DNA of 64,000 nucleotides from Winogradskyella bathintestinalis (GTDB lineage: Bacteria; Bacteroidota; Bacteroidia; Flavobacteriales; Flavobacteriaceae): the NCBI RefSeq assembly GCF_030407435.1, contig NZ_JASDDK010000002.1, positions 466,702-530,701 of the forward strand, read 5' to 3'. The notes under the pieces are model-generated. The model ran no database searches. It was not told the origin of the DNA and saw only the letters and a list, made by a program, of their open reading frames with translations. The position numbers were made by a program, and so were the translations under genes. This document shows, one piece after another, positions 12,071 to 12,290 of the stretch (the stretch's first letter is position 1; every line of letters begins with the position of its first letter).

Positions 12071-12290
12071 CTATCTATCTATCTATCTATCTATCTATCT
12101 ATCTATCTATCTATCTATCTATCTATCTATCTATCTATCTTCCTTCCTATCTTCCTTCCTATCTTCCTTCCTATCTTCCTATCTTCCTATCTTTCTATCT
12201 TTCTATCTTCCTATCTTCCTATCTTCCTATCTTCCTATCTTCCTATCTTCCTATCTTCCTATCTTCCTATCTTCCTATCTTCCTATCTAT
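12071..12290. repeat. 55-unit tetranucleotide microsatellite with higher-order structure
   Basis: The 220 bases stay in one four-base register throughout. Blocks read: CTAT x17 (12071-12138); CTTC-CTTC-CTAT x3 (12139-12174); CTTC-CTAT x2 (12175-12190); CTTT-CTAT x2 (12191-12206); CTTC-CTAT x10 (12207-12286); CTAT. It sits between two converging genes, downstream of both terminators, so no promoter or coding frame is obviously affected. The plus strand is free of stops in all frames through the array, the minus strand is not. Such length and nested organisation are rare in bacterial chromosomes and imply repeated slippage or unequal exchange. Confidence 0.98.

Follow-up and report, generated by a model that had tools for sequence, protein, structure and literature searches.

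The spacer between two converging genes, one encoding a protein with fasciclin domains and the other the membrane insertase YidC, holds a 220-bp array of 55 four-base units whose register is unbroken when it is parsed in steps of four. It is best understood as a lineage-specific compound microsatellite, which slipped-strand replication, with an occasional point change, would have lengthened and which would have been tolerated at an insensitive spot of the genome; the probability of this reading is put at about 85%. The position of the array in the window (the whole 64-kb stretch of DNA analysed), 12071..12290, its length and its unit number agree exactly with what a sequence-only reading of the same DNA had described. 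The units follow in the order CTATx17; (CTTC CTTC CTAT)x3; (CTTC CTAT)x2; (CTTT CTAT)x2; (CTTC CTAT)x10; CTAT. The layering given in that reading thus stands in outline, as do its two CTTT variants, although its count of ten dimers has to be amended: there are 14 in all, ten being the last uniform run, the CTTT dimers precede this run, and an extra CTAT closes the array (Table 1).

Table 1. Features of the array and its surroundings, in window positions.
Feature	Position	Strand	Basis
Gene with two fasciclin domains	10844..11827	+	Pfam PF02469, E 6e-46, two stretches
Predicted intrinsic terminator of fasciclin gene	11884..11914	+	consensus scan; 14-pair stem, T tail
Unique left flank	11916..12070	.	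self-match E 3.1e-76; next best of 68 genus genomes E 3.9e-4 over 25 bases
Pure CTATx17 segment	12071..12138	.	unit parse
12-bp unit CTTC CTTC CTAT x3	12139..12174	.	unit parse; period-12 run 12135-12180
14 eight-bp dimers (CTTC CTAT x2, CTTT CTAT x2, CTTC CTAT x10)	12175..12286	.	unit parse; Tandem Repeats Finder period 8
Closing CTAT unit	12287..12290	.	unit parse
Right flank, without long match in relatives	12291..12385	.	best E 0.049 against 80 yidC loci
Predicted intrinsic terminator of yidC	12386..12409	-	consensus scan; 9-pair stem, T tail
yidC membrane insertase gene	12472..14376	-	Pfam PF02096 and PF14849

The assignment to the microsatellites follows from units within the 1-6 bp range that lie head to tail well above chance, and the compound character from CTAT, CTTC and CTTT blocks that adjoin one another and combine into higher-order units of 8 and 12 bp. 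An exact period-4 run of 71 bp (12070-12140) spans the pure CTAT segment, which is likely to be the most slippage-prone part of the array, and the longest perfect period-8 run measures 86 bp. By comparison, the longest period-4 run was 11-15 bp in third-order Markov simulations of 20 sequences of 64 kb and 17 bp in a single simulation of 3.83 Mb. Tandem Repeats Finder reports the array as 12075-12288 with period 8, 26.8 copies and a score of 246, against 59 for its next-best row in the window. The earlier proposal of at least three rounds of expansion is safe, because a minimum of five doublings is needed for the CTATx17 segment, four for the ten dimers and two for the trimers, even assuming that any block may be copied whole.

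The possibility that the contig, being one consensus, misstates an array whose true length is shorter, longer or mixed is quite improbable. The source genome is a 3.83-Mb draft in 35 contigs, and sequencing-derived length artefacts on tetranucleotide arrays have been documented (PMC6889271). On the other hand, the contig in question is 1.04 Mb long and the array is well away from its ends, exact repeats within the array reach 78 bp at most, and a search of the array with 300 bp of flank on either side for repeated 79-, 99- or 127-mers found none. A collapsed repeat is unlikely because reads of ~150 bases could order the units; the missing repeated 79-mer thereby largely answers, in silico, the worry about an artefact that had been voiced in the sequence-only reading. 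The unit number may still be the consensus of a mixed population.

Both predicted terminators lie outside the array, so that the two transcripts, running towards each other, should both stop in the spacer. This bears out the earlier view that the array is placed beyond the terminators of both neighbours. The scan returned 3 terminator-like sites in 2.3 kb against 1.1 in shuffles, and hairpins that resemble both predicted terminators by eye are present in the spacers of relatives. A minus-strand promoter-like site at 12353-12326, which points at the array, speaks against a neutral slippage reading; promoter-like sites are no commoner around the array than in shuffles (9 found, 11.1 expected). 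Since it lies beyond both predicted terminators, the array would not be a phase-variation switch of the usual kind. The idea that slippage in a coding or promoter array toggles a gene here is indeed hardly credible, although four-base units do shift the frame and a 105-aa frame crosses the array from a TTG at 11975. An open frame is to be expected, because CTAT, CTTC and CTTT in this order hold no forward stop; moreover, this frame has no Pfam family and ends at 12292, where antisense of yidC follows, and the start of neither neighbour adjoins the array. With its location between facing predicted terminators and a spanning frame without a family, the array therefore does not look like a phase-variable contingency locus, as far as sequence can tell.

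In order to place the spacer in a comparative frame, 80 yidC loci were fetched, 14 of them titled Winogradskyella, the best match being W. psychrotolerans E3R09 at 87% identity in a search that may omit records very close to the window's own genome; the host would accordingly belong to this genus. A fasciclin relative is found downstream of yidC, not always adjacent and in every case converging, in at least 48 of the 80 loci (a lower bound, because some fetched stretches end early) and in 13 of the 14 titled Winogradskyella. None of the 80 loci carries a perfect tandem array (period 2-9, at least 20 bp) downstream of yidC, and the array is thus not a conserved element of the yidC-fasciclin spacer. 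The same scan, covering 765,686 bases, returned six rows from four loci, all of them seven-bp repeats upstream of yidC. These repeats (e.g. CATTAAC, CCAACAA, CAATAAC) measure 22-53 bp and belong to loci of Tamlana and Snuella (L066, L072, L078, L084).

It had been suggested that the array might have a structural role or a role in transcription collision, and neither suggestion gains from these data. The minimum free energy is 0 for both single strands of the array (the structural result concerns single strands only) and no Rfam family reaches its gathering score in the array region, which speaks against a structured or regulatory element; two weak Rfam matches over the fasciclin terminator score 20.9 and 20.3 bits where the gathering scores are 39 and 80. 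A conserved role in collision is not supported either, given the absence of such perfect arrays downstream of yidC in the 80 loci, including the 48 with a converging fasciclin relative. A functional spacer, that is a transcription buffer, an insulator or a protein-binding array between the converging genes, is for the same reasons very improbable, even though the array sits between two facing predicted terminators and CTAT arrays in two other genomes (G057 and G709) likewise lie between converging frames, given that further CTAT arrays have other settings, either ahead of genes or within frames (G584, G503, G640). It would be more far-fetched still to regard the array as a fast-evolving buffer whose length variation tunes the read-through collision of yidC and a surface-adhesion gene; if true, two genes would here be under the influence of a contingency locus at their 3' side. 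All in all, the array is most likely functionless.

The gap between yidC and the fasciclin gene seems to be a site of DNA turnover, with genes gained and lost. Among ten relatives' spacers inspected, five (L019, L021, L023, L029, L032) measure 118-270 bp, one (L095) encloses a frame of 147 codons whose product has domains of the GNAT acetyltransferases (Pfam PF00583, E 1.7e-11), two (L031 and L027) contain shorter, interrupted frames resembling this acetyltransferase, and two (L020 and L022) hold other DNA in the first 800 letters of each. The flanks of the array also appear to be peculiar to this genome. A 701-base spacer query, with 8 candidates scored per genome, matched 25 of 68 genus genomes; apart from the own genome and the array of G057, the matches listed concern mostly the end of the fasciclin gene and its terminator, while the right flank is touched by short matches alone (25 to 40 bases). 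The comparison with relatives that had been envisaged for this spacer hence yielded no second genome with it among the 68.

These observations raise the alternative, itself compatible with growth by slippage, that the array was brought in by an insertion of foreign DNA and that its unique flanks are what is left of this DNA. Relatives offer no long match to the flanks, the same spot holds other DNA in other species, and the last 35 bases of the left flank, which adjoin the array, have a G+C content of 54% as opposed to 25% in the remainder of the left flank and 23% in the right flank. Nevertheless, the left flank has no second copy in its own genome (best further match E 0.04), its G+C-rich edge folds no better than shuffles, and the one 18-mer that this edge has in common with three viral contigs is judged near chance. 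An origin from foreign DNA is accordingly considered unlikely.

Arrays of this kind proved to be rare. CTATx6 occurs in 2 of 68 genus genomes and in 5 of 395 sampled genomes of the phylum, the own genome being counted in both cases, and CTATx8 in the own genome alone among 397 sampled from the family. CTATx5 is found at one place in the own genome, CTTCCTATx2.5 in no other of the 68 genus genomes and CTTCCTATx3 in no viral contig, by which a dispersed array family is ruled out. CTAT was also considered as a motif peculiar to the genus and dropped, the same-composition control CATTx6 being present in 1 of the 68 genomes, a less complete one; the counts (2 versus 0 among the 59 good genomes) are too small to separate the motifs. 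In the viral collection 17 stretches contain CTATx8, with a longest perfect run of 81 bp and a longest imperfect period-4 array of 152 bp, both on contig L131. The pure CTAT part is therefore not record-long, and what is unusual is the total length in unbroken register. On contig L131 the 152-bp array (948-1099) mixes CTAT and CTATT, and the perfect 81-bp run is an AGAT array (3266-3346) 2 kb away.

Nor does the surrounding genome abound in repeats. Neither the window outside the array nor a 400-kb sample of its contig, equal to roughly a tenth of the genome, contains a perfect repeat of period 1-12 and at least 18 bp in three copies. As the sampled genome is not generally prone to array formation, the existence of one very long array calls for luck or for a local cause. 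MutS loss was examined as a cause and ruled out, a MutS of the own genome scoring over the mutS1 cut-off. The genome has three MutS-related genes in total (L192, L193, L194), the other two being partial matches. According to a survey (PMC4060949), the mismatch repair system deals efficiently with loops of 1-3 bases but copes poorly with longer ones, prokaryotes do not in general suppress tetranucleotide repeats, and the possession of long simple sequence repeats is correlated with reliance on a eukaryotic host. In Histophilus somni, length variants of tetranucleotide arrays have been described within one culture (PMC6889271).

The course of events that we infer from the arrangement of the units would have begun with a short chance CTAT run enlarged by 4-bp slips. 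Two point mutations would then have altered one unit, perhaps along the path CTAT to CTTT to CTTC; the dimer CTTC CTAT would next have been enlarged by 8-bp slips, and a CTTC CTTC CTAT trimer would have been copied by 12-bp slips. The presence of 4-, 8- and 12-bp units in one register fits slips of one, two and three units with few point changes, and CTTT, which is one step from CTAT as well as from CTTC, may be an intermediate or a later change. Hairpins are not a likely driver because neither strand folds alone, and recombination between paralogous arrays is unlikely because the assembly has no second such array. The array would have persisted because it is located between two terminators in a convergent spacer, where changes of length should touch no promoter and no reading frame; it is presumably not transcribed and probably neutral.

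The array is a known kind of thing, unusually long. Compound microsatellites include eukaryotic STR loci of the TCTA/GATA type, and the array resembles them in that a pure run is joined to variant units in register, with 8- and 12-bp higher-order units. Intergenic variable-number tandem repeats are used in bacterial typing, and the likeness here would lie in a probably neutral length polymorphism between genes, whereas the unit of most typing loci is longer than the four-base unit found here. The comparable imperfect TATC array of viral contig L131 differs in that its four- and five-base units leave the register. The tetranucleotide contingency loci of Haemophilus influenzae are alike in their tandem four-base units, for which length change by slippage is expected, yet those described as mediating phase variation sit where length can alter expression, while the present array is outside genes and likely outside promoters. 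Arrays of H. influenzae with an imperfect interrupting unit, similar to the one described here, have been reported and ascribed to recombination between paralogous arrays, in the work that describes them (PMC2651432); unlike in that proposal, the assembly here contains CTATx5 and CTTCCTATx2.5 at no further place. Bacterial compound repeats have been the subject of surveys (e.g. PMC8619395), and in the titles and abstract openings of the partial literature listings searched the present array is not reported. Titles on Winogradskyella and tandem repeats contained nothing on the subject, and no literature was found that joins Flavobacteri, tetranucleotide repeat and slipped-strand mispairing. While the array points to no new mechanism, it offers a clean natural example of the growth of a bacterial microsatellite where selection seems blind: units of three different lengths share a single register, and the sampled part of the contig is otherwise free of arrays. 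Possible uses are as a marker of strains and as a neutral measure of slippage rates with which phase-variable arrays could be compared.

The search of relatives for other CTAT and CTTC arrays, which had likewise been envisaged in the sequence-only reading, was productive. In the second genus genome with CTATx6, that of another species (G057), a perfect CTAT array of 63 bp is flanked by a short frame and by a converging lpxD (Pfam PF04613). This array, in the region L010, 1400-1680, immediately adjoins one copy of a dispersed 25-bp repeat, TCATGCTGAACTAGTTTCAGCATCT, of which more copies lie nearby, and the CATCT end of the repeat may have seeded it. The same repeat was considered as a seed here and rejected, the window containing 0 matches of TCATNCTGAAC. 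The array of G709 is located between two converging frames, and those of G640 and G503, of 24 and 27 bp, are inside putative stop-to-stop frames; because these contexts are mixed, no common function is suggested. In G584, GATA arrays of 38 and 44 bp (L160 and L164, around 1498-1543) occupy paralogous regions separated by 6.7 kb, with 99% and 95% identity between their 120-base flanks, and their difference in length within near-identical flanks is therefore as slippage predicts. The two arrays sit just upstream of two related lipoprotein-like frames and could possibly constitute a slippage-tuned promoter pair.
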